Below, piece after piece: positions 3,170 to 56,636 of a stretch of 64,000 bases of DNA (positions are counted from its first letter, which is position 1; each line of letters starts with the position of its first letter). A program made the translations under genes and the position numbers. The stretch is taken from assembly GCA_963971405.1 (NCBI GenBank), contig OZ020491.1, positions 5,636,855-5,700,854 on the forward strand. The letters are read 5' to 3'. Source of the DNA: Psococerastis gibbosa. Lineage: Eukaryota > Arthropoda > Insecta > Psocodea > Psocidae. Under the pieces are notes generated by a model, which was not told where the DNA came from, searched no databases, and saw only the letters and a list, made by a program, of their open reading frames with translations.

Positions 3170-3345
3170 CACAGGCCGTTCCGTTTGCTTTTGTTTTCGG
3201 GGGGGGGGGGTCCAAACATTTTTTAACGTAATTAATTATTGAATTAATGGTCATCGAGCAATACAGGTTTACATAAAAAATTATTACGGGGGGGGGGGGG
3301 GGGTCGGGACCCCATGGACCACCCACCTGGGCACGGCCGTGGCTA
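3170..3345. repeat. Poly-G element copy 1
   Basis: G runs flank a core (TAATTATTGAATTAATGGTC, then ATACAGGTTTACATAAAAAA) shared with the next two entries. It ends in GGCACGGCCGTGGC. Confidence 0.7.
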
Positions 3346-3397
3346 CTGGAAAGTAACGAAGATACATATTAATATACATTATTGATCCAAATCAAGG

Positions 3398-3557
3398 CCA
3401 TAGCCAGGATTTTTCGGGGGGGGGGGTCCAATTTTTTTTAACGTAATTTATAATTGAATTAATGGTCATCAAGCAATACAGGTTTACATGGTTTACATAA
3501 AAAAAATTATTACGGGGGGGGGGAAGGAGGTTGAACTCCCCCTTGGCTACGGCCATG
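3398..3557. repeat. Poly-G element copy 2
   Basis: Bounded by GCCATAGCCAGGATTTTT and CCTTGGCTACGGCC, imperfect inverted ends. Same core as its neighbours. Confidence 0.7.
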
Positions 3558-3639
3558 ATCTCAATCGACTGTCCTATTGGATCTGGAAAATCTTTTGTTG
3601 GCCCACTAGGATCCACTAAATGTTTTGAACACATATACA

Positions 3640-3783
3640 AGGCTGTTCCCAGGTCCAAACATTTTTTTTCGTAATTTATTAATGAATTAATGGATAAATT
3701 CTTCAAACCATACAAGTTTATCTGCAGAAATTTATTTCGGGGGGGGGGGCGGACTCCATGGACCACCTCCTGGGCACGGCCAT
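3640..3783. repeat. Poly-G element copy 3
   Basis: Same core and G run. Ends GGGCACGGCCATG. Confidence 0.65.
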
Positions 3784-5765: not shown

Positions 5766-5985
5766 ATTTGCTGGAAGCAAGCTGTGCGCCAGCAAATGAT
5801 ACGCGTCAGTCGGCCATTTCTATTTTTATTAAAAATAAAAACAATGAAATATGAATACAAAATAATTTATTATAGGGCAGTTTATGTGAGTAATAAATAA
5901 AACATTGAACTAAAATGGTTTTTATAAGAACTCGTATAATATTGAATATTGAAGAACTTTGATTCATACATGCTCATTTTTTGCC

Positions 5986-19588
<13,603 letters not shown>

Positions 19589-24973: not shown

Positions 24974-27900
24974 CTGAAAAGAGAAACACGTCAGTTATTG
25001 CTATAGAGCCAACAGGAGGGGGCGGGGCAGAGAGAGTGGCGTATCCGTATAGAAATGACGAGCTCTACGCGATATACCGAAAACCTCCGATAGTAGCCGA
25101 AATCAAGAGAGCCCGCATCAAGGGAGAAGACGAGTGGGACGACCACGGACGACTTCGAGGTGGATCTGGCGACCCTTGGCGTCGATGACTGGCGAAGAGA
25201 GCGCAGGACTTCGCAGGCTGGCGCGATGTGGCAGAGCAGGCCAAGGCCCTTCACGCCAAGGAGTAAGTAATAATAATAATTCGTGTATTTCAGAAGATTA
25301 TTGACCTAACAACATATACTGTAGGCCCCATTAACCTAACGGTGTGCGGGGTACCTACGAATATGGGTAGTAAGTATAAGTAGTAAGGAGGGGGAAAATC
25401 TTTACGGGTGCAAAAAATCCAATTTCACTGGAATACCGTTCGTAGAGCAATATATGAGATGTCATAAAGTACAAGTGATGTTCCTATTTTTTTTATGTAC
25501 ATTATGTAGCCGTCACTGACAAAAATCAGCCCCAGTTTTATTTTCAGTTGCGCTATATGTCTCCTCTACCGAAGATTGGCGATCATCATGGCCATTTGTG
25601 TCTTGGAGACTACTTCTCTGAAAAGGGAAGTCGTCATCATGCCAAATCCACTGCCGAAGATTTTTTTAACCATGATGTTCTTCTGCCGGGAGCACTGTCC
25701 TTCTATCTTTCCTTGGTTTCCATCATGCAGAAGGGGACATTGCTCGTTTCTCATCACACGACTGAAGTTATTTTCGTTTTTTAAATGTCCGCAGCAACTC
25801 GGCTTCAGGATCCATTCCCCTCAAGTACCTCGGCATTACGAATTTTATGAAAAATTACCGTGTTTCAAATACATACTCCAAAGTTCACGTACCTCTTCGC
25901 ACACTGAAGAAAGTTTCTCGGGATTCTTTAGTAGCCTTGGACGGACAAAGTCAACAACCTCCTGACTCGACATGAAGTTCCAGATCCCGTCACAGGCGAG
26001 CACCAGGAACTCCACGTCCGGGGTCACCTCCAGCACCTTGACGTCTGGCATCGGCGAGATCATTTGTTCTTCCGCTGGCAGCTCAGTTACAAGCTTGTAT
26101 ACGTGGTCACCTGCAACGATATTGAAATGAAGTAGAGCGATTTTAGGTTTCACCATTTTTTCTACATCCCTGTTTTTTTAATAACAATACAATACCGTTT
26201 ATTTCATAAAAGAAACATAATTACATGCTGCTTTATAATCATAATATGCTGCAGGGCTCATGCCCGTGCTCAGCTAACAATTGGGAATATATATTTGTAA
26301 CCTAACCGTTAGTAAAAGTAAGTAAAGTCTGTAAGATGAGTAATTGCTTCACAAAATACGATATGTACTTAATGTGATTGGTACTGTCGACTCATCGTTT
26401 GTCGGCACTATTTCGTTAGAAAGTGTTTTTAAATGTCCTCACAATATGTTCAGTTGATGTACTGTATTTCCGTAACTTGGAAGTTTGTTGTTGTGCTACA
26501 ATTGTCTTCAATTGCATAATAATGATTCACTATAGACAGCTAGGTCTAAAGGTAATACACGTGTGTACCAGTGTACCTATGGCCTGCTGTCATCAATTGT
26601 GCGTCATTATTAGCCAATCAGAGCGCTAGTTACATGTCTTTTAGACTACTGACAGGTAGGCTCCCTGAAGTGATAATAGACCTGTAACGGCGACTTACAA
26701 TTCCGAAGCAACACCCAAGCATTATTTCCATAATACGGGTATTCGTTATGTTAAGCTTTGCCCACGCAAACCTTACTCCGCAGTTAGTTTTCTCCTCACC
26801 ACATGAGCCAACGTACCCAAACTTAAGGGCTTAAGGGCTCTATATACCCGGAAATTGCTATCCCTCTATTTGATTCCCATAGTAAGTACTGCAAGTTGCT
26901 AAAAGATTAAAAATCACTGTTGTTTCCCACGCCTACTTTAAGCAACCCTGTCAGCCTGGCGGGGGGAGTGAGTCTGTTTGTTAACTTGAGGCCCCCTAAG
27001 GGCAGACTCTTTCACCTCGGGGAAAGGGGAGTTGACTGACAGGGTGGACCCCCTGATTATATATTAAAAAAAAAAAAAACTTGGGGAATATGGTTAAGCC
27101 ACACGATTAAATCGGAGGTGACCAGGACTCCGACACGCACGTAGACTGACTGGTGTAGTCTCAGCACGTTATCATGTCCCCATGTTCCCCTGCCAACGCT
27201 GTGCACACTACCAAGTTTGCCGCAGTTTGAAACATGCTTTGCTCTCATGGATTCAAAATGGTAAGGCAGATTAAAAATAACTAAGATACTTTTTATGAAG
27301 CACTTTTCCACCGGGTGGGACGTTTTTTATGGTTAAAAAAACACATTAAAAGAAATAAGTGCCTAAAAATAACAATTTTAGAACTCAATGCTTTGCTTGT
27401 ACACCAAACTTGATGATGAATTCGAAGTGGCGATGGAATACCTGACTAATATAGAGCCCTATCTAAAAAGAAACAAAACGGAAATGACACTTACCCAGAG
27501 CCCGCGACAGGTTAAGGCCGCCATTGACTCGGCCCTCGCTGGTCACCTTCCCACCCGCATTCTTGATCCTCTGCATCTCAACCTCGTCTTCCGGCTTGTG
27601 GTCTAGACTCAGGTCGACGGCAACGCCATTCTGCGACGCGACGCACCGCGAGTCGCCCGCGTTGGCTACGTACACTTTGTCGCCGGCCACGAGCGCGACC
27701 ACAGCGGTGCAGCCACTGTCCGACCCGGGCTGTAAATATAAAAGAATCATGACAGAACGGATAGCTGAAAAACGACCACCGACCTCGCATTGCAGAATGC
27801 AAATGGCATTGACGGAAATGTTTGTTTTCCTCTATTCCTTGGTTTAAATTGATCAATGATCATACAGTAAAGTCTTGAATGTCTGCTACCACGTTACCGT

Positions 27901-30900
27901 TTTTGTATTTAGCCCTAGCCGGTCGGTGGAATCCCCGCCTAATGAGAGGGTCCTCGACCTGTGCTCAGGCCTAGACCCTTATTGGGCTGTCGTGCCACGG
28001 CGTATTGCTATACGGCGACACAGGTCTTCACTTTGCAGGCGTTCCAGCCTTGCGCATCTTCTGGTGACAGGCCGGGGGTCCTCCCTCACGCTGGTTTCCA
28101 AGGGCATCCTTGGTGGTCCTTATTCCTCGGAATAGTCACTTAAGCGTTGCTGGAGATGACTGTCTTCTTTCCTCTTCGTGTGACTCTCCATTTTAATAAA
28201 ATAAAGCGATAAAAATATAAAATGTTCATAGTACTTCAGTGGAAGTGGAAGTAACAGGTTAATCGTCTTTACGCCAGAGGGGGAAAACCTTATGGGTGCA
28301 AAAATTCAAAAAATTGTCGAAACTGTCCAAAATATCACATTCCTTAGCAGAAATACCCCATTTTTTTAAGAAAAGAAAAAAAACGCAGTGTCCGATTTGC
28401 TCTTTATCAGCTACAACATCAATGTTTGGTTCACTGCTACCCACCAACCCAACTCCCTCTGCTGACAAATAACCGTACGCCGCAGAGTAACATTCGTCCA
28501 TCAAATCACCCAAATTAGCAGCCTGCCCACTTTTGCTTACCTCATCTGTTGTACCCATAGTAAATTCATCGTCGTCATCTTCCATCCCCTCCTCGTCCTC
28601 GTCGTCATCTTCGTCCTCATCCTCCTCGTCTTCGCACTCATCGTCCTCCTCAAGTCCCCCGCTGTCCGGCTTCTTTGAAGAGCAACCTTCTGTAAGAGAA
28701 TGACATTCAAGGCGCCCCTCATCGTCACTTGAACTCACGACGTCCTGACCCGTAAAGTTTTCATCGCTGTCACTCTCGCTTGAGTCTTCAGCAGGATCTA
28801 CAAAGCAAAACAAATAATTATTTTTTGTTGGGGCATATCATATGCATTTGATGGTCTTGGTTTTTGAACACCATAAGGTGGTGCTGACGTTCAAGTTTGC
28901 ACTTTTTCTCCCATTTCGTTAAGGTGCATATTCCACCTACATCAATAGTCAATAGTAAATGTGGAATTGACTATTGACGCAGGTGGAATAAGCGCTTTAC
29001 TCGTTGCAAGGTGCAGCAATTGCTCCTCTTGGCCTAGGCTCAAGGCTGAGGACAGACAATAAAATTGTAAATGTTATATACTGTCTATCATCCAGCACGT
29101 ATGTCCTTATCCATAATGTATAAAACACGAACCTTAGGTTCAAACGGAAAGAGAGCTGATCACCATGTGAGCAGATTAAACCGTGCAAGTGAGAGTAGTC
29201 TCCATGCCCAGGAACAAGTACGTTACCGTGTAGCCCCTAAGTAATTAATTTGCCCCCCCCCCCCGAAGTAATAAATAATCATTTATTTTCTTCCTTCATA
29301 AGATATCCAATGCAATCAATGCAACAATATAGTAGTAGTTTGGTTGGACACAGTCCCAGGTCACGGTGTGGACCCATTGGACAGTACAACAATATAACAA
29401 ATATTTCAATTTTACTAATCATTTTCTATTCGAGGTAGGAACCCTTTACATTTCTCTGTGATGTGCCCCTATATAGGTTATATATTACTTACTGTACGGT
29501 ATAGGTTACTTGTGATGTAATGCGATTTACAATAATGATGTATTTTTTTTTCTTCTTCCTTTTTTACCATCTCATAAATAATTTCTTCTAATTTAAGGAA
29601 TGTATTCTTCAACATTTTAAAGAGAGTGATTTCACTTGAATTGGCAGGTTGCCCCCTGTCCCCCAAGTGGTTAAGTGTAAGCTTATAAATAATTCCCCTC
29701 TCATAAGTACATTCAGTATACGCTAGTCTATAGAAGGTCCCAATTAGTGGTATTCGGAGTGTGACAGTACTTACCCGAAGAAACAAACTTCTTAAACAGC
29801 TCATCCGGATTAACAGACTCTTTCTTCTTTGCCGGCAACGGGACATGCTTCAACAAAGCTTTCCCCTTCCCTTTCGACTTTTCCGACTGGGCCGGACCAT
29901 TTTCCGAGGACGATATCTCTGCATTCTGCTTTCCATCGTCCTCGACGCCATTACCATTAACAACAACCTCCTCAGTCACACTCTCTTCGCCTACATCCCC
30001 TGAACTATCCGGAGCAGTAGCATCACCATTTAAATACTTCTCAGCCAGACTCGTTCGCGTGATCTCCTTCGAAGACGACGAACTAGAAACCGCCGGCTCG
30101 GCAACACGAGTAACACCACTACAACTACTGCTTGAACTGCAAGCGGCCGCCCCGCTATCGGAAGAACCCTCATCGGCAAAGTCACTGCTTAAACTAGAAC
30201 TTGTGCACTCAGCTTCGTTGAGGGGCTTGTTCATTTTCGCCCGCAGGAATGGGGACACAGGTGTTGATAAATTCTCTCTCTTCCACTTCATTCCCTTCTG
30301 GTCCATGAGTTTACCGGACGCGTACTTGGCTATAACCGCTTCCAACGGCATCTCCGCCTCTTCCTTAAGATCACCCAAATTCTCATCTTCATCCTCTGTT
30401 GCATCGCCTTCATCGTTCTTTTCAGCTAATTCTTTTAAAATATCTATTACATCAGGTTCGGTTAGAGATTTGTCAAACTTAAGGAATGCTTCTTTCAAGG
30501 CCTCTATGTAATCTCCTTTCTTGAAATTGTCACTGTCTTTAATGAAATCGGGTAGTTTTTTGGCTGCATATTCGGCGACTTCTTTACCACCATGGCCGTC
30601 GTACACAGCCATAAGAGATAAGTTTTCTGACAAGTCCAAAATACAGTTATGAGCATCCTAAAACAAAGATTTCGTTGTACTGTTCTGTTTAAAAATGACA
30701 ATCTACAACGTGACCTATATTCTTAAATTCCAATATATTTAAAGCGCGGACTTGGCTATACTCCGTAATATTAGTGGTGACTGCCACAAAAGCATTGTTA
30801 AAGCTACGGAAAGTGGAATCCAAATATTATACAATTTAACCATGCTTATTGCTTTACTAATATAAAACGCCTTGGTATTTTTTTTTTTTTTTAAGGTTAA

Positions 30901-32461
30901 TCGCATACAAACAATTTAATGAATGTATCCGATTGACCTCTTCAGTCGCCTCGCTAGGTTATTACCCGTGTTGAGCTACGACACGTCTCCGATAGCATGG
31001 CGTGTAAAGACTCGCACAAGTGGAAGCACGTTACCACCTGGCCATCGAAGTCGATTGCACCACCATTTTTTGTTTAGTTATCCGCAACTTTTTGCTTGGA
31101 TGTATAGGATGTTATACTACACAAAAATTAGAGTCCCTGACCAGCCAGAGCAGGTTCGACCGTGGCAACAAAAACAGCCACCCGAGAGGGTTTTGTACGA
31201 AAAAAGGAGGAGGTACTTTAATAGTCCAGCTCCTGGAGTCTTACTCATCCAAATTATATATAGTGAGGCGTCAATAAGTCTGCGCTTAATGTATGTTCTG
31301 AAACAAGCTTGATCCAACTGGCTTACTAAAAATGGTAGCATATTGTAAAGCCGGTGTGCAAGTATCGGATAAGAATCCCTCAACTTGTTTAGGCGACACC
31401 TAGTCATATCGAACCCGTTCGCCGATAGCGTATTATAAGAGTGCACTGTACTCCGAGCTGGCAATCCAGGATTCATCTTTACGGCCATGAGACAATTAAA
31501 GACATAATGGCCATGAACGGTGAGGACTCTAGCGGCTTTAAAAAGGGGTCTGCAGTGGGCAAGATACGAACTTTTTTTGACATTGCGGACAGCTCGTTTT
31601 TGTAGTAGGAGTACCTTGCTTACTCCTGGAGAGTGCCCCCATGCCAGTATACTATAATTTATATGGGCATGAAACAGACCATGGTATGCCATCAAAAGAT
31701 ACTGCTCCGGCACCAGTCTACCAAGTTTACGTAGCAGGAAAGCAACTTTAGCGAGTTAACTACATGCTATTAGTATGGTCCTCCCAGGATAGTTTGTTGT
31801 CAATCATAAAGCCCAACAGCTTAACTGCACCAGTTTGATGTACACTAGCACTACTAGACAAGGAACAGATAATTCTTTGTGTCTTATCATTGTTAATTTT
31901 AAGTCTTATTGACAAACCACACTGTATCCTCAAGCAAAAGCAAGACAGATTCACTCGTCTATCACTATTTTCCGGTTTGTTTCTTAACACAAATAAAACT
32001 GCTCAATGTGTCATGGATAAAGATTGATTGAATAGGTTTGTGCCGAAACCGCGTGTATTCAAACTTTAGTTTTTAAAAATTGAGCTTTTGCGACTAGCCA
32101 GTGGCAAATTTGCCTGATAAGCCTAAGTTAACTTAACCTAACTTTATTACCTAAATTAATAGACATAACTGTCAAAAGACAAACGGGAATAAATAAGTAA
32201 GTGTCGGGTCATAGTTTAAATTTCTACAAAAACTAAAATGTTTAAAGAAACATAGATTCCTTTAAGTTTATAGGGAACTTACAGCTATTTAGCTTTCTTT
32301 ATGCAAGTAAGTAGACTGTCTGATGAGTGGAGAAGCTAGAAAATACTCACTTCTTGAGAAACCCGCCAACCTTGCATGGAGCTCACACCGCACTTTAAAC
32401 TGTTGTTTACTTCATCACTTGAAAATTTCTCAGTCACAGGTTGTGTGAGATAGGCACCCAT
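24716..32461 (-). CDS. PPM1G: Protein phosphatase 1G (PP2C gamma), complete, 6 exons, 653 aa
   Basis: Mg2+/Mn2+-dependent nuclear Ser/Thr phosphatase of the PPM family, linked in other animals to splicing factors and histone chaperone functions. Exons in transcript order: 32461-32351, 30657-29775, 28797-28541, 27729-27495, 26110-25893 and 24973-24716. Phases all agree, summing to 1962 nt. It starts [13 protein letters not shown] and continues [16 protein letters not shown]. Metal-binding Asp residues are visible at DGHGG (about 57), ACDGIW (about 536) and GCDNMT (about 586); GDSRCV is also present. As in PPM1G, a long acidic, Ser-rich insert (about 105-410) splits the catalytic domain. The C-terminus has basic clusters (VKRK, SKRSK), a plausible nuclear signal. 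Length is 653 aa against 546 in human; the extra length lies in the insert. It converges tail-to-tail with GCN5. Confidence 0.96.
25893..26110 (-). CDS. PPM1G: PPM1G coding exon 5
   Basis: Catalytic part: [31 protein letters not shown]. Phase 0 at the 3' end. Confidence 0.95.
26929..27265 (+). repeat. Dispersed repeat R, long copy in PPM1G intron 4
   Basis: AAGCAACCCTGTCAGCCTGG through GGTGACCAGGACTCC to GGATTCAAAATGGTAAGGC. An inverted copy lies at 34018-34372. Confidence 0.85.
27495..27729 (-). CDS. PPM1G: PPM1G coding exon 4
   Basis: Catalytic part: [29 protein letters not shown] and [10 protein letters not shown], all canonical PP2C motifs. Confidence 0.95.
27779..27941. mobile_element. 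Deletion derivative of the nested MITE, PPM1G intron 3
   Basis: The left half is inner-element sequence (CCGACCTCGCATTGCAGAAT). The right half is outer-element sequence (GTCTTGAATGTCTGCTACCA ... GGTGGAATCCCCGCC). Confidence 0.8.
28541..28797 (-). CDS. PPM1G: PPM1G coding exon 3 (acidic insert)
   Basis: Almost entirely Asp/Glu/Ser, including a run of more than 30 mostly acidic residues, matching the acidic box of PPM1G. Open reading continues to 28259, but the donor GTAAGC at 28540 gives phase 0 and joins exon 4 at PGSDSG, as in the family. Confidence 0.9.
28922..28992. mobile_element. Short palindromic MITE, PPM1G intron 2
   Basis: About 71 bp, ATTCCACCTACATCAATAGT and its complement. Related to 2341-2420. 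Confidence 0.7.
29775..30657 (-). CDS. PPM1G: PPM1G coding exon 2
   Basis: Encodes residues 38-331: the first catalytic segment with [10 protein letters not shown], then a long low-complexity, Ser- and acid-rich insert, ending at a Lys-rich stretch and VSSG. Donor GTAAGT, phase 1. Confidence 0.94.
30885..31056 (-). repeat. Family B, copy 3 (PPM1G intron 1)
   Basis: Reverse copy: AAGGTTAATCGCATACAAAC ... CCACCTGGCCATCGAAGTCG. Confidence 0.88.
31117..31990 (-). pseudogene. LINE ORF2 C-terminal remnant, PPM1G intron 1
   Basis: Two adjacent open pieces. 31760-31990 has LKINNDKTQ and [16 protein letters not shown] (end of the reverse transcriptase domain). 31117-31713 has [20 protein letters not shown] and [10 protein letters not shown], typical of CR1/Jockey-like ORF2 tails. 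The two pieces are separated by stops. Same strand as the host gene. Confidence 0.82.
32351..32461 (-). CDS. PPM1G: PPM1G coding exon 1
   Basis: Encodes residues 1-37, including MGAYL (a potential N-myristoylation start) and MQGWRVSQE. Phase 0 donor GTGAGT. Confidence 0.94.
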
Positions 32462-34372: not shown

Positions 34373-34721
34373 TAGAAGCAACAACAAAATGTCACCAGTA
34401 GCGTTAGTAGGGGGGCTGGGTAGCTACAACGCATTGGACAAATAATAGTCAAAATGCAATTCATATATAACAAACAAATTAGGCTACAGCATAAAACTAA
34501 TTAAGTAGTTAAAAATTAAAGTGGCAAAATATAATGGATATATATTTCGATTTCATTGTGGATTGGAAGCTTATGGGTATACACGTAGACAGCAGCCTAC
34601 CTGCAATAATGCTTGTTTATAAACTTTTTGACAATTTACGCAATCGTTGCCACATGTGAGAAGTTTTTCTCTGATTGGAAATTAATATATACTCGTATAA
34701 TACTATTTAAAAACTACAATG

Positions 34722-34753
34722 CGTCGGCTGCAAAGTAATACCTCGTAACTGAC
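34722..34753 (+). repeat. Left terminal inverted repeat of the 3.68 kb transposon
   Basis: 32 bp, 31 of which match the reverse complement of 38369-38400. Flanked outside by AATG. Confidence 0.93.
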
Positions 34754-34959
34754 TTTTTTTCGAAAATCGGTTTTTTAATGCATTGTGAAGAGAATTTAAA
34801 AAGGCACATTTTTATACAAGAATTATGACCAAAGCAGCGTTCTTCTTAGAGAAAATCAAGATTTGAAATTTATTGTAACTGAAATGGCGCATGCTCGGTC
34901 GGAAATACCGCGTATTTGATAGTCGGCCATATTGATAGCCGCATCACCTGTTGTCAATT

Positions 34960-35214
34960 CTAGTTTGTTCGTGTGCTTATCAATTTTGGTGAGTATAATA
35001 TTATTTTTAGATTTTCTTTTGCAAATATACTATAGAACACATTATTGTCGACCATAATATGTTTCAAAACTATCATTAAATCATGCATCCCAGTTACATT
35101 TTCTTTGTCAAAGAAGGCCAAGCAGATACGAGTTATTGCATGTTCATATTTTTTGTCAACAGAGTTATTATTACAATGTAACTGATTTAGCTCAATGGTA
35201 GAACCCTCACTCAT
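34960..35214 (-). CDS. Small antisense ORF in the left arm of the transposon, 84 aa, unknown
   Basis: It starts with ATG on the minus strand (MSEGSTIELNQLHCNN) and ends before the left TIR. The composition looks protein-like (ICLAFFDKENVTGMHDLMIV), with no low complexity and no family I recognise. It may be a chance ORF or a second gene of the element. Confidence 0.25.
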   Translation of the reverse strand: MSEGSTIELNQLHCNNNSVDKKYEHAITRICLAFFDKENVTGMHDLMIVLKHIMVDNNVFYSIFAKENLKIILYSPKLISTRTN

Positions 35215-35252
35215 GGTAGCTGTAGGCTAATAAACTGAACGAACCACAGAAT

Positions 35253-35425
35253 TTTTGGCCCAGGGGGTGGTCCGTAGGGTCCGCCCCCCCCCCCCCCCCG
35301 AAATACATTGTATGTAGACCTGTATGGGGTGAAGAATTTATCCATTAATTCATTAATAAATAATGTAAAAAAAAAAAATTGGACCCCCCCTTAATCAAAA
35401 CCTGGGCACGGCCTGGCCCAAATCA
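35253..35425 (-). mobile_element. Poly-C/G short element inserted inside the transposon
   Basis: Contains a long C run followed by the reverse complement of the sequence found at 3180-3345, 3398-3556 and 3640-3783 (about AATACATTGTATGTAGACCT ... TAATGAATTAATGG-like core). Its ends contain GGCCCAGG / CCTGGCCC. Confidence 0.6.
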
Positions 35426-35498
35426 TCTACTCTAGAATTGGCTTTAGCTCCCAAGGTAAGGTATAACGCGTGTTACTGTGATTGTTTCAGATCAGAAG

Positions 35499-35604
35499 AT
35501 GGATTCCTCTTGTGACTCGTTTGATTCGGAGGAGGACGTGGAAGAGTTGGTTCGAGAGCTGAAGAAAATAATCCTGCAATTAAAATCGCATTTAGGCCTA
35601 AAAG
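35499..35604 (+). CDS. Possible 5' coding exon of the transposase
   Basis: After a pyrimidine tract and cag, an ATG opens an acidic stretch (MDSSCDSFDSEEDVEELVRE) that ends at a GTAACT donor. It resembles N-termini of this transposase type. Its phase (1) does not fit the best downstream acceptors cleanly, so the exon structure is unresolved. Confidence 0.45.
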
Positions 35605-36059
35605 GTAACTTTATTTCTATCTAATGACGGGTGCAGTCTACATTAAGTACCGTAAGCCTAACCAATTGATGACTCACACTATTTAAAGTAGGTTCATTGG
35701 TCAGCCCCCTGCTATGTAACGCAGAGGTTTGGACTTCGCGGTCTAAATCCCCATGGTACCTATGAATTTTTTCGGCGGTGTGCTTCGGCTTTTAGAGGTC
35801 CACCCAGCCTCTCTAAAGTTAATTTGGGAAGCTAGTTTGCTTCATAGCAGAAGGTCCGGTCTAGAAAACTAAAATTAAGTATTGCGTCATGCTGACTACA
35901 TGACTCTTTGTTCTCCCTGCATTGCAGCAGGCTCAGCTCCTCATTCAAGGGTTGCGCCACAGATTTTTTTTTATTATCAGGCATAGCCTAATGTTTATTA
36001 TTTTTGTTTCTAGCTCTCGTAGTTTGAAAAAAGCCATTACAATTACATCTTCTCAGAAT

Positions 36060-38105
36060 ATGAACTTTTCGCTCAGTACAGCTACAGAGGATGTACATCC
36101 AACTCCACCACATGAATTAAATATCAGTCTCGAGAACCAGTCAGTCAACAGTTCATTAACTGAACCATTTCAACCCTCTGATGGCGATAGTGACCCAGAC
36201 TATTCACCCGAACAAAGGAAGCGCAAAAAGTTACCTTTTAACTTGAATACTTCTGCAGACACTCTTCAGAGTTTGAACTCGCCTCTCAGAAAAGCTACTG
36301 AAGTTCAACTACCAGCTCCAACAACTAATTTTGCGGATGTGAGTGATGCTGGTCTTAACGCATCTCTGACCCCCATGGCACCTAGCCCTTCTCCAGCTCC
36401 TATTGCTGGACCAAGCACATTGTCAAAGGGTGGAGGCAAAGTAAAGGGTCTGGGATCAAAGACACTTGCGCACTCATTGCGTGAAAAAGGAAAGGATTAT
36501 CTTGGGTACAAAGTAAAGAAAGGAGAAAATAAAATCGATAGAATTGAAAGAACTTCACGAAAAATTAAAAACCGCTGCTCGTCGGAGAAATGCAAAAAAA
36601 GTTCTGCCTTCTTTTGTAACACCATTTTGGAAGACATCAGGCAAGAGTTATTTGAACAATTTTGGCAAAATATGACTTGGGACCAACGAAAGGCTTACGT
36701 GTCCGCATTAGTAGACAAAATTCAAACAAAGCGCCCTAAAAATGACAATTCCTGAAGAAATTCAACATTCGTATGTCATTTAAAGATAAATGACCAGCGT
36801 TTAAGGGTTTGCAAGAATATGTTTCTAGCAACATTTGCCATAGGAGAAGCCATGGTGCATTCTTGGGTTGCAAAGGGGGGACCGAGCGGTCTCAGCCATC
36901 AGAAGGTAGCCAGAAAAGGAGCCTTGAAGGAAGATGAACTAACCTTTTTAGAGGAGTTCATCGATATGCTGCCTAAACTGCCTTCCCATTACTGTCGCAA
37001 GTCGTCTTCAAAATTATACCTCGAAGCAAACTTTGAAAATAAAACTGAATTTCACAATGAGTATAAAAGATTCTGCGTTGGTGAGGGGAAAACTCCTGTG
37101 GCGTTAACAACCTTTCGCAAGGCTCTAAAACGCAAAAAAGTTGCCCTGTTTTCACCTAAAAAAGACTGGTGTGATACCTGTTCTTCCCACAAAGCTGGAA
37201 ATGTGGATGACGTTACTTGGCGAAACCACATGGCTGAAAAGGATCGCGCTAGAGCGGAAAAGGATGCAGATAAAGAGCGCGCAAAAAATGGAGAGGCAGT
37301 GGTACTTACTATGGACCTACAAGCTGTTCAACTCGTTCCATACCTAAATGCAAGTGCGTTGTATTACAGGACAAAATTGGTTTGCCATAATTTTACGGTG
37401 TACGACTTGACTAGCCATGCAGTCATGTGTTATTGGTTTACAGAAACAGCGACCGATTTGACAGCCTCTACATTTATTTCTTGTTTGGAACACTATTTAA
37501 AAACTCGCTGCGTTGATAAAAAAGTTCCAACTATCATTTACAGTGATGGCTGTACTTACCAGAACCGCAACGCTATCATGTCCAGTGCTCTGAGCAACCT
37601 CGCCATAAAATTCAAACTATCAATTGAACAGAAGTTTCTAATTAAGGGACACACCCAAATGGAGTGTGACAGTGTACATTCAGCTATAGGTCGCAAAGTA
37701 AAAAAAAAAGAAATGTACCTTCCATCGGATTATTTGAAAGTGACAAGGGAAGCAAGAAAAAAGCCATTTCCATACGAAGCAGAGCTTTTTGATTTCAGTT
37801 TTTTCAAAGACTATACAAACAGTCAATCCTATACTTCAATACGACCAGGAAATTCATTAAATGATCCCAAAGTAACAGACCTACGCCTGATTGCGTATTA
37901 CCCTGATGGCAGCATTAAGGTAAAAACATCTTTTGATGGGGCATTGCAGGCGTTGCCACGGCGGCGAAAGCAATTACAATTGGAGGAACCAGTCGCAAGA
38001 AAAACGGCGCTGAAGATTAGTCAGCGAAAATATGATGATCTCCAGTACCTTAAAAGTGTTCTGCCGGCTGATTGTCACTCTTTTTTCGACTTATTACCCC
38101 ATTAA
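36060..38105 (+). pseudogene. Transposase of the 3.68 kb element, DUF7869-like DDE protein, interrupted by one in-frame TGA
   Basis: An open frame runs from at least 36014 (acceptor TTTCTAG) to TAA at 38105 and is broken only by TGA at 36753-36755. The 21 codons after it lead without a shift into the downstream half. From the ATG at 36060 the protein would be about 681 residues including the stop position. The N-terminal part is acidic/Pro-rich, followed by a basic and helical region. After the stop come VCKNMFLATFAIGE (family-typical), a CDTCSSH zinc-like motif, and three acidic motifs: LTMDLQ, IIYSDGCTYQNRN and GHTQMECDS, which I read as the DDE triad. Such proteins are common, uncharacterised entries in arthropod and cnidarian genomes. 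The stop could be a CGA-to-TGA (CpG decay) change. I treat the copy as recently inactivated, although readthrough cannot be excluded. Confidence 0.85.
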
Positions 38106-38368
38106 ACTCTAAAAACTGATTGGTGGTTATTATTTTATATTATTATTTATACAAGAAAAACCTCGTATGTGCATGCAATGAACCAAAATCTGAGAATGAA
38201 ATATATCGTAAGTAACATTTCTCCTTAAGTATTAAGTAAAGTTAAATTTCTGACTTACTAGGTAAAAAAGAGACGGCACGACATGAAAAAGGAGCCAATA
38301 ATTTGATCCCAAGCTTTAATATTGACTAGAAAATTAGTTTTTTCACTCTCCTGAACAATTTGCAATTT

Positions 38369-38400
38369 GTTAGTTACGAGGTATTACTTTGCAGCCGACG
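38369..38400 (-). repeat. Right terminal inverted repeat of the 3.68 kb transposon
   Basis: Reverse complement of 34722-34753 with one mismatch. Followed by AATG at 38401-38404. Confidence 0.93.
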
Positions 38401-38404
38401 AATG

Positions 38405-52306: not shown

Positions 52307-52873
52307 TTATTGCTCTGGCCATCCCATGTCCTCCCCAACTAATTCATAAAATTTTTGGTTGTGCTCTGTAAAAAATTGCCTTAACTTTGTAACAACAATT
52401 GGGTGTACCCTCGGGTGTTTTCTACCTTTGGTTTCTCTTAAACACTTATCAGCAGTCTCGTTGCGTAAACAGTAAAAACCTTTGGTATGATTAAAATAGA
52501 AATTCTGCCGGGTTATCCGGTGTTCTAAACCTAAAAATGACTCAATTTTCCGGATAACCGGAACCGGGTCCTTAATTAATAAGTCGCCGTTAACTACGAG
52601 GAGTTGTTTTCTAGAGAATACCTCTAGCCACCGGTGGAGGTAGGTATGGTACAGGCTGATGGCGACAGGCCTATAAGCCAGGTTCACGGTACCGTCTGGA
52701 AGCATGACTAGCTCTTCAAAGCTCTTCTGCAGAAGAGGAGATGTCGTCATGGAAGATGCGGTGGCTGCGTGACTTCTGAGCTGCGTGTAGTCGGAGATCG
52801 CTCTGGTGACAGGTTCGCGAACTATCAGAAGAAGTTTGACGCTGTTGTTCATTGCTCTAATTCTTTCTGGCAC
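52307..52873 (-). CDS. Hs3st-A: HS3ST coding exon 2
   Basis: Residues 164-351: PAPS 3'-phosphate site, substrate cleft and disulfide region, ending in GEDMGWPEQ and a stop. Confidence 0.94.
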   Translation of the reverse strand: MPERIRAMNNSVKLLLIVREPVTRAISDYTQLRSHAATASSMTTSPLLQKSFEELVMLPDGTVNLAYRPVAISLYHTYLHRWLEVFSRKQLLVVNGDLLIKDPVPVIRKIESFLGLEHRITRQNFYFNHTKGFYCLRNETADKCLRETKGRKHPRVHPIVVTKLRQFFTEHNQKFYELVGEDMGWPEQ

Positions 52874-55800
52874 CTGAAATAAAAGGGAGAAGCTTCTTGA
52901 AAACAGGGACGGATCCAGCCCATTTTTGGGGTGGGGGGAGGGGGGCAGTTGGGTGATAAATAGGAAAAACATATTATGTAGGATTGATTAAATCAAAGCG
53001 TAATAAATTAACTTACAATACAATTTACTAAATTTTTTTAAAATAAAGAAATAAATAAATATTGACTTTTTTTGTTCCATTACTAAGCCAACCTAGCCGA
53101 GTTAGGGCTATAAAGCCCTCTCTTACTAGGAAGACCCGGGACCGCCTGCTTTACATGCCCTCCGAAGCATGGCCAGAAAATGTAGCAAGTGTGAGACTTG
53201 AACAAACAACCTTTCGGGTGAAAGTCGGAGTCTGTACCACTACTCTACATGTCTTGACAAACAAACAAATTTGCAGTGGGGCCCACTAGTAATGATATTA
53301 TAATAATGAAATTCTCCGTTACAATTTTGAATGGGTCCATGAAAGAATGAATGAAATTCCAGTAGAATCCTATACTAGTATGTGAACGAAAATTATATTT
53401 ATGTGCACTTTTAAATCCAGGTCGCATATCTCCCTCCCACACACAGCAGAGCTTTATATTGGCTGGTGGGTGGGGGGGGGGGCGCAAAATTGGGTCTCAC
53501 TGCAGCAGAAATCCTGCTGCGTCTTATCGAGTTATTCTCAACTGGGTGGAGGTTTTTTTTTGGAATGTAGCTTCTGTTTTTGGCCTTTTCATGGAAAATT
53601 CAAAAAACTTCCGACCATTATGTTTGCATGTTTACCTTTGTGTAGATTTTACTGACAATGATGGGAAATACTTGCGCCGAACCAATCAGAACGTATCAAC
53701 GTACCTACTTAAAAAAACATCGGGGGTTGAAGGGGCGCTTGATTTGTATAAGTATGCATTTAATTTACCATAAATAACTGACTGCGGTTTTCTTTTGATT
53801 GTCAGTTAATTAGGTATATAAATTTGAACGCTGACCCACAACCTACTGTATATCTTGTACAGACATTTGAGCTCGTAACCATCTCTGACTCGATTAACAC
53901 ATCTTGAAAATCAATTTACTGTGCATGTCACACATTGTTGTGGCAAACAGTGAGGTGCTGACCGCTATTTGACGTTTATCAGCAGACACTAGTGTCAGTT
54001 GCAGGTGTCAGGCCCCAGGCACCCAACCAAGGCTGAGGGTGGAGCAATAGCAGTGGGAAAACTACATATAAGGGAAAGTATAAATGAGAAAAAAGGTGTG
54101 TGCTTGGGACCAATCGAGCCAATGTAGAATTTTGTTTTACTTCGTGGCCCTGCCCCCCTAGCGCCTACGGCGAGCGGCAGCTCGCCCCTTCGGGCCTCGC
54201 ATGTTTCCATTGGGCATTACGCAGCTCGGGCCTTCGGGGCTCGCATGCCACAACATATATTTCAGAATTTTCTTATTTTCCGCGCAATTTTAAATTTTTT
54301 TTTTTGTCTTAAGAACCTTCTCCTGACAATAACAAACACAACAACAAAAAAATAAGTAAATCGACTTCGATGGCCAGGTGATAACGTGCTTACACTTGTG
54401 CGAGTCTTTACACGCCATACGATCGGAGACGTGTCGTAACTCAACACAGGTACTAACCTACAGAGGCGACTGAAGAGGTCAATCGGATACATTCATTAAA
54501 TTGTTTGTATGCGATTAATCCTTTTTTTTTTTTTTAAAAGTGAAATCGGTCCAGCCGTTCACGCGTGATGGCGTGACAAATAGGGATTCATTTTTATATA
54601 TAGAGATGGTGTATATGACACTGCTGACTAAGCCTATAATTCCACTTGTCAATTTTTTCTTCAATTTTGATGATATCATTTATATTTTTACACTTCATTG
54701 AACTTGCCCTCAATAATTGACCTTTTTTCTTCAATTTTCTCTTATTTTGTAAGTTTGCCCCGTCTTTCTTTTAATTTTATAATCGGCAAGAAATTTTATG
54801 ATTTAAATGTTTTCAAGAAATAAATTACAATTATTTATCATCTCCAGACGACGCCATTGTTTAATTTTAGTTTGTAATTGCTTGCAAAGCGTGATTTTAT
54901 TCTATGATCATTGATCAATTTTAACATGCGGAAGCTAAAATAGACAATGACTTAGAGTAAAACAAAACTCTCTTCAATTATTGACGGAATATTGACGAGT
55001 GGAATAGCCGGCTAACATTTAATTAACTTTGGTTGGAGAGGTAACCTCCTCGTTATAACTGAAATTAGGAGGCATGTGGTCCAGCGGTTAAGACGAGGCA
55101 TAGATCGTGGGTTCGAATCCCGGCAAGTCCAGTTTTTTCCATATCCTCTAATTTCGTCAACAAAATGGCATTAAAATAAGCCCCCAAATGAAATCTACGG
55201 TGTTTAAATTAATAATAATAATAATAATTCGTGTATTTTTTATAAATTTGTTTTACACAAATACGGAGACAGTTGAAGTGCCCCCTCATGCCAGCGGCGT
55301 GCGAGGGTAGCATACTCAATACCGATACCTATTTCACCCAAAAGACTTTTACTAACTACGAGTTCAGAACTAATTTGTACCTTCTCAACTACCTATAACT
55401 GAGAATTATAATTTATAAAAAAAAAATGTTTGTATAAAAATATATAAAATGCTAATGCTAATGTAATTTGTCGAGTTCGTCCCTTGTCCATAATCTTATT
55501 ATTGTCCTGTATGTTGCTGTTCTTAGCGATCTTGTATTACTGTCAGTGTTGTCTAATTGATACAAAGTCATACTTACATCAGGAGTTACGAAGTAGCTTG
55601 GACTCTTCTCAATAGTAATTTGCCCTCGGAACGAATGCGGCATCTTCTTTCGATACCAGTCAAGTCCCTTGTAGTAGTTTTCATCCCGGTCAAAAAAATG
55701 TATCTCCCCCGCAGCCTTTTGGATCATCGGATGCAAAAACAACATTTCCAGCAGCGCCCTCGTCCCACATTTCCGAACCCCTATTATAATAGCTTGCGGC

Positions 55801-56066
55801 AGTCTTCTGCTGGTCCGAGGAAAGTGTACCCTCGAACCGTACATTTGAGATCGATTCTCAAAAACCATCTTCATCTTCTCGTCAACAACTATTGCAATAT
55901 CATTGTCATCGAATGCTGCCGGATCCAAACTGCAGACAGCACTGTCATAAATGACGCTAAATGTTAAAAATAACGAAATGAAGGTTATCGTTATGAGAAA
56001 TATGGCCAGTTTAGGGCGTGTCAGTCCCAGTGTAAAGAGACAGTCGTCAGAATCGTGGCTTCTCAT
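52307..56066 (-). CDS. Hs3st-A: Heparan sulfate glucosamine 3-O-sulfotransferase (HS3ST5 / Hs3st-A type), complete, 2 exons, 351 aa
   Basis: Golgi type II enzyme that moves sulfate from PAPS to the 3-OH of glucosamine in heparan sulfate. Exons 56066-55578 and 52873-52307 join at phase 0 (TPD|VPERI), total 1056 nt. A short cytoplasmic tail is followed by a membrane segment at about residues 18-41, a stem, and the sulfotransferase domain. The PAPS loop is IIIGVRKCGTRALLEML with catalytic-site Lys99. Then come GEIHFFDRDENY (Glu121, the likely base), ITIEKSPSYF, LLLIVREPVTRAISDYTQ (3'-phosphate site) and a Cys pair around FYCLRNETADKC. Human HS3ST5 (346 aa) is the closest length and motif match I recall. 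Cys100 replaces the first Gly of the vertebrate KGGT motif. The 2.7 kb intron is full of repeats. Confidence 0.94.
53041..53259 (-). mobile_element. tRNA-derived SINE family A, copy 6 (HS3ST intron)
   Basis: TAAATAAATATTGAC tail, TTACTAAGCCAACCTAGCCG body, and head ending in ACCACTACTCTACATGTCTTG. Confidence 0.9.
54357..54540 (+). repeat. Family B, copy 5 (HS3ST intron)
   Basis: AAATCGACTTCGATGGCCAG ... TTGTATGCGATTAATCC plus a T run. Confidence 0.88.
54625..55012. mobile_element. Degenerate palindromic MITE
   Basis: Ends AATTCCACTTGTCAAT and ATTGACGAGTGGAAT. The interior shares TTGATCAATTTTAAC with the nested MITEs. Confidence 0.65.
55066..55131 (+). other. tRNA-like sequence (probable SINE head or tRNA relic)
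   Basis: GTGGTCCAGCGGTTAAGACG fits an A box and GGGTTCGAATCCC a B box at tRNA spacing, followed by a T6 run. The acceptor stem does not pair convincingly, so I do not call a working tRNA. Confidence 0.5.
55578..56066 (-). CDS. Hs3st-A: HS3ST coding exon 1
   Basis: Residues 1-163: cytoplasmic tail, signal anchor, stem, PAPS 5'-phosphosulfate loop and catalytic Glu. Donor GAT|GTAAGT. Confidence 0.94.
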
Positions 56067-56636
56067 ACTGGGTCCGCCATTTTAGAATATGAGGGACTTC
56101 TCGTCCGTCAATATGCAAGTCTGTTTAAAAATTATACAAAATATTTATCTGTGGTAATAAATTAAATCTTGGAGTTGTAGGGGGTCAGGAATCGGTATTG
56201 GAGGTGTGAGCTAGAATCCACACTTTTACACTACTTCGGAGAATCACTGCTGTTTTCCTTTTTTGAGCGTTTCCTTAAACAATTCTTATAAGTATATTAT
56301 ATCTTCTGCGCTATATAATGTTCAATATACTGTACATATGTACTGTAACTTCTTTTCCTTCGGATTTGTACTAGGGGTAAAATATTTTGAGGGTGTTTCG
56401 GCTGCTGTACACAGAGTTTAATAATCAAAATAATGTTTTTAGGTTGGTGTTTAATTGTAATACAAGTATATTTGCTAATATTAAATTATCTAATTTGATA
56501 CGTTTCTTGATATGTTTATGTTTCTTCTTAATGGATGGCGTTTTTTTCTTATCTGAAACAAATAAAAGACAAATTAGCCTAAATTTGACTATTACATTAT
56601 AAATCAATTAATAAAAGAACGCAACGCACGACAACC

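Follow-up and report, generated by a model that had tools for sequence, protein, structure and literature searches.

In the excerpts available of PMC10741241, Sola transposons are described as having a DDD transposase, 4-bp target-site duplications (TSDs), highly variable termini, terminal inverted repeats (TIRs) of 11-1124 bp and, mostly, a size of 2-9 kb. Elements of the Sola2 type duplicate the AT-rich tetramer AWWT, according to the excerpt of PMC3627910. TSDs of 4 bp, about 4 bp or 3-4 bp are also given for piggyBac, Kolobok, Ginger1, IS481EU and AcademX, the target of piggyBac and Kolobok being TTAA, in the available parts of PMC10045372 and PMC9587614.

Here, we analysed a window, i.e. 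the whole stretch of 64,000 nucleotides under study from the insect Psococerastis gibbosa (assembly GCA_963971405.1, contig OZ020491.1, positions 5,636,855 to 5,700,854), which contains a mobile element. It is very probable that this element is a Class II cut-and-paste transposon with its own D-D-D transposase, that it belongs to Sola or a close relative, and that the copy in the window is defective but recent. Compared by description, it is similar to Sola in its 4-bp duplications, in three aspartates recognized by their conservation in an alignment, and in the variable termini of its relatives, and both its TIR length and its size lie within the ranges given for Sola (PMC10741241, in the excerpts available). 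Seven of the 11 duplications found in the element and its relatives (families A to E) fit the AWWT of Sola2 as given in the excerpt of PMC3627910, unlike AATG, CCGT, ATAA and AAGT. Judged by these descriptions, Sola or a close relative is a plausible placement and the best fit among the known superfamilies.

piggyBac and Kolobok share the 4-bp duplication and the cut-and-paste anatomy with our element, but they target TTAA and use other transposase families. Both are unlikely because TTAA was not among the duplications of families A to E (0/11), and Ginger1 and IS481EU are unlikely because Pfam recognized no integrase domain in either the window protein or the scanned relatives. A named transposase domain was missing from the same proteins. 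Although the TSD lengths described for these four superfamilies and for AcademX are similar in the parts available of PMC10045372 and PMC9587614, we regard it as highly improbable that the element belongs to any of them.

Structure and copies of the element

The features of the element are listed in Table 1. TIRs of 32 bp and a 4-bp AATG duplication had already been reported in a preliminary description of the sequence, and both were confirmed. The two TIRs are complementary at 31 of 32 positions, as is characteristic of Class II transposons, and the duplication is exactly 4 bp long because a comparison of five bases fails (CAATG versus AATGG). When the outermost 21 bases of the TIR were searched in the window with up to three mismatches, just two sites were obtained, which are the two ends of the element; 100 shuffles yielded zero matches.

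Table 1. Coordinates of the features of the element within the window
Feature	Position	Strand	Remarks
Target-site duplication, left	34718..34721		AATG
Whole element (family A, window copy)	34722..38400	+	3679 bp
Left terminal inverted repeat	34722..34753	+	32 bp, 5'-CGTCGGCTGCAAAGTAATACC...
Dispersed genomic repeat inside the element	35258..35420		5' of exon 1
Predicted coding exon 1	35499..35604	+	ATG 35499; splice signals and phase; 1-bp deletion versus C14 and C15
Predicted exon 2, bulk of the transposase	36014..38105	+	interrupted by TGA 36753-36755
428-aa frame of the preliminary description	36819..38105	+	C-terminal part of the transposase: CxxC...H, D166, D243, D284, DUF7869 match
Right terminal inverted repeat	38369..38400	-	pairs with the left TIR
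Target-site duplication, right	38401..38404		AATG

The host's own genome (409 Mb in 68 contigs, with the window on contig C19) was searched for further copies. Including the one in the window, six copies were detected on six contigs, dispersed at unrelated sites, and are referred to here as family A. A genome-wide search with the 21-mer of the TIR, allowing up to two mismatches, resulted in eight matches, every one at an end of these six copies, and the reversed control pattern had none in the whole genome. Given that, at up to two mismatches, the 21-mer was found nowhere beyond the six copies, family A is a small family together with its deletion derivatives, and a large swarm of MITEs with these ends could be ruled out.

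Over the aligned length, the window copy shares 99.0% identity with the copy on C14 and 98.2% with that on C15, which is truncated at its left end. The copies on C20, C1 and C2 are shorter, consist of pieces that are 83-90% identical to the window copy, and lack query positions from roughly 350 to 1200. The C20 and C1 copies have additionally lost about 1.05 kb from the core of the transposase, and the match of the C2 copy to the window element is confined to the left part. The preliminary description had suggested a comparison of the termini and duplications of other copies, which revealed the same ends and, in all four family A copies with both ends, a duplication of exactly 4 bp at different sites (AATG, ATAT, CCGT and ATAT). 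The best reading of the window copy is a young Class II element that is defective now, but recent.

The dispersed repeat located 5' of exon 1 occurs in at least 35 further places of the genome, with three partial matches elsewhere in the window, and is common to all three long copies of family A (window, C14 and C15). Since the C14 and C15 copies have it too, it predates the separation of the three, and a late nested insertion that broke the element was excluded on the same grounds. In the window, this short repeat was also observed at 3204-3775.

Several other features were seen in the window. Open frames on the plus strand match PCAF_N of Pfam (5953-6330 and 9940-10632) and a GNAT acetyltransferase domain (14841-15245), and the region 5953-15245 may be read as a histone acetyltransferase gene of the KAT2A/PCAF type; the gene content suggests an animal host. 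On the minus strand, a frame with an acidic stretch matches PP2C (29731-30657), and neighbouring frames at 25845-28837 look, by eye, like further exons. The frame at 31117-31755 on the same strand had no Pfam match, but resembles the tail end of a reverse transcriptase from a non-LTR retrotransposon. Two minus-strand frames matching Sulfotransfer_1 (52310-52987 and 55461-56081) resemble a heparan-sulfate sulfotransferase. Scanning the window for tRNAs and against Rfam gave no match.

The transposase gene and its domain

The preliminary description had placed the start of the protein at ATG 36819. This was not borne out, because the coding region is apparently split into two exons. The frame at 36756-38105 is the 3' portion of a longer frame that begins at 35904 and is cut by the TGA listed in Table 1, and predicted exon 1 lies still further upstream. 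In the C14 and C15 copies, the same stretch is fully open (736 aa from stop to stop), and the predicted splice sites, a GT donor at 35605 and an acceptor preceding 36014, form an in-frame junction there, the phase being counted on the alignment. In the window copy, predicted exon 1 is one base short and this junction is out of frame. Judged by these splice predictions, the full protein appears to comprise about 730 aa. The window copy is defective at two places because it carries the nonsense TGA and the 1-bp deletion in exon 1, and sister copies without both lesions exist. It follows that the wording "near-intact autonomous" of the preliminary description is fair with respect to the length of the element; autonomy does not apply to the window copy, but fits family A.

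The expectation of a DUF7869-like protein within a transposon proved to be correct. Pfam family PF25273 (DUF7869) matches residues 210-314 of the window protein above its curated cut-off (30.6 bits versus 26; E 3e-7), and the match lies inside an element with both ends. It is the sole Pfam family matched by this protein at E values up to 10; an NCBIfam scan of two frames gave no match. The PF25273 entry carries no function, whereas the domain forms the core of the protein of a mobile element here.

Residues are numbered from ATG 36819. All three acidic motifs named in the preliminary description are present, namely LTMDLQ with D166, YSDGC with D243, and HTQMECD with E282 and D284. We aligned 16 proteins from the host genome, some of which are near-identical copies. 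D166 (in TMDLQ) and D243 (in YSDGC) are present in 16/16 proteins, and the C, C and H of an upstream CxxC...H motif, one P, and the E of WFTE are likewise invariant. E282, which had been suggested as the third acid, was ruled out in this role, since three of 12 alignment rows have P or R in its place and further loci have P, G or A. Instead, conservation is found at D284, the last residue of HTQMECD, which is D in all 11 rows with a letter at this position (L070 has a gap). Two residues of the proposed triad are therefore retained and the third is exchanged, and the alignment suggests that the catalytic triad is most likely D-D-D (D166, D243 and D284, with spacings of 76 and 40). The three conserved acids of a DDD/E transposase are present in this sense, the third being D284 by its conservation in the alignment. 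A regular-expression scan, in which the third D was obligatory and a later site could be E, D, G or Q, matched 12 of 14 loci. Each of the 12 has E at this later site; L055 and L070 did not match. Because the regular expression already demanded a D, D284 was tested by the alignment only.

The CxxC...H motif just upstream of the acids is probably a zinc site. As to the fold, the transposase core most likely adopts an RNase H-like architecture carrying D166, D243 and D284; splicing, superfamily, fold and catalysis are all inferred from the sequence. Secondary structure was estimated crudely from averaged propensities, with residues numbered as in the alignment, 20 higher than from ATG 36819. This profile placed strands just ahead of both D186 and D263 and in the segments at about 199-216, 223-226 and 287-293, and it placed a helix at about 308-316. 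Such an arrangement, in which strands precede the acids and a helix follows the third one, weakly suggests roughly the order of RNase H, but the profile also gives a strand at 241-245, between D166 and D243, where the RNase H fold should have a helix. Protein and profile searches of solved structures led to chance-level matches only, with no transposase among them.

Related families in the host genome

A protein search of the host genome resulted in 69 matches, 30 of which were made into loci. When nine proteins, comprising a sister copy and relatives, were scanned with Pfam, seven matched DUF7869 at E values of 0.1 or below, and four of these seven exceeded the cut-off; the relatives L067 and L070 had no DUF7869 match. 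By family, the proteins of A, D and E score above the Pfam cut-off and that of B below it, and the protein of family C has no match alone, but aligns with the others.

Family B shows approximately 40% protein identity to family A. Across about 3.2 kb, six places share 99.3-99.7% identity with one another, and a partial copy is 98.9% identical; the longest open frames reach 791 aa, in four of the places. The left end is CGTCGGCCTAATTAGTAAAACACG and the right end, read inward, is CGTCACCCTAATTAGTAAAACACG. A duplication (ATAT, ATAT and ATAA) flanks three of the four copies with both ends. The copy L045/L075 on C3 has both ends complete with the flanks CCTT and CTGG and no duplication, which possibly reflects recombination between copies. 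Three further places on C21 (L048, L049 and L054) have a common right flank, ATAT. The left end was found in two of them, with the first bases lost in both, but was not found in the third. This looks like a segmental duplication of one insertion, and the three places were excluded from the counts of both-ended copies.

Family C comprises two copies with the ends GAGGCGGTCCGTTGCAAAATGCGCC, one of the four arms being altered near its tip, and with the duplications AAGT and ATAT. Family D is represented by one copy with imperfect ends beginning GAGGCATATGGTTGC and GAGACATATAGTTGC and the flank AATT, and family E by one copy with a perfect 35-bp TIR beginning CGCTCC and the flank ATAT. Because D and E are single copies at palindromic tetramers, the border between repeat and duplication was set by analogy. 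In families B to E, a 4-bp duplication was present in seven of eight both-ended copies, two of the seven (D and E) being ambiguous. All five families together reach 11/12, or 9/10 without D and E, and a chance match of four bases is expected at about 0.005 per copy, assuming 38% G+C.

Among 17 further related loci, a convincing TIR pair was identified in three, and additionally in L057 once wider flanks were read; in the remaining 13, flanks of 1.5 kb to either side (10 kb for L061) revealed no convincing TIR. In a quick tree of the core segment, families A and B formed a group with two of their relatives at a support of 0.98. Neither by protein nor by TIR was a relative detected in viral contigs, and phages contained no relative. 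A degenerate HTQMECD pattern occurred in two viral and four bacterial stretches, none of which was taken as a relative because the best protein similarity had an E value of 0.053.

The strong differences between the termini of related families (CGTCGG, CGCTCC and GAGGC) raise the question of whether the DUF7869 group constitutes a DDE superfamily of its own, which would share the duplication length with Sola without being its homologue at the superfamily level. The fact that DUF7869 is the only Pfam match of the window protein fits with such a separation, as does the absence of DUF7869 and PF25273 from the literature searched. However, the excerpts of PMC10741241 describe Sola itself as combining a DDD transposase and 4-bp TSDs with very variable termini, and no new superfamily is needed to account for these features. 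We consider a separate superfamily somewhat unlikely and retain the placement in Sola or a close relative.

Traces of selection were sought in the families with several long copies. The last 449 codons of the three long family A copies differ pairwise by 9, 7 and 10 changes. On a three-branch tree of exon 2, six nonsynonymous and seven synonymous changes were counted, compared with 78% nonsynonymous changes expected at random. The numbers are small; for this excess of synonymous changes, a simple model that ignores transition bias gives P about 0.011. Four family B copies differ in their six pairs by four to 13 changes each, about half of which are nonsynonymous. Both results point to proteins of families A and B that would have been working while the copies spread.

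Seven residues past D284, all three family A rows carry G, while E is present in all eight other rows having that position. If this E is required, the family A transposase may be catalytically dead and family A a passenger, moved by the enzyme of a relative such as family B. The latter has several near-identical open copies, its left end CGTCGGC has the first seven terminal bases in common with family A, and internally deleted A copies carry duplications of their own, all of which would be in line with mobilization in trans. However, the similarity of the A and B TIRs ends after these seven bases and the right end of B is CGTCACC. Moreover, the three aspartates are intact in family A, and its copies show fewer amino-acid changes than expected, although in small numbers. 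A passenger role of family A is, in our opinion, quite improbable, and mobilization by its own transposase is the preferred reading.

Discussion

Termini, 4-bp duplication, copies, conservation and lesions are directly visible in the DNA described here, and they are compatible with a simple course of transposition. The transposase of the family, with about 730 aa encoded by two exons, would bind the TIRs and cut at the 5'-CGTCGG ends. These ends would then be joined to the two target strands at positions four base pairs apart, and repair of the gaps would give rise to the 4-bp duplication.

A broader hypothesis is that DUF7869 marks a large and internally diverse superfamily of eukaryotic transposases, with at least five families that have 4-bp duplications in the host genome, in which the termini change freely around a constant D-D-D core, and that the glutamate missing from family A is either dispensable or compensated in trans. 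We put this forward tentatively and rate it as unlikely.

The literature searched contained nothing with DUF7869, PF25273 or the accessions IPR057191, PTHR34415 and PTHR10773. This says nothing about entries in Repbase or Dfam, which may well already contain such elements.

In kind, the element is ordinary, being one more DNA transposon that duplicates four base pairs. What is useful is that DUF7869 is explicitly linked to whole elements: since the sister copies have the same ends and a four-base scar, this protein family is tied to a class of mobile DNA. Annotators could therefore treat DUF7869 proteins, listed as being of "unknown function", as transposons and not as host genes, and defined ends, residues and substrates are now on offer for biochemical tests.
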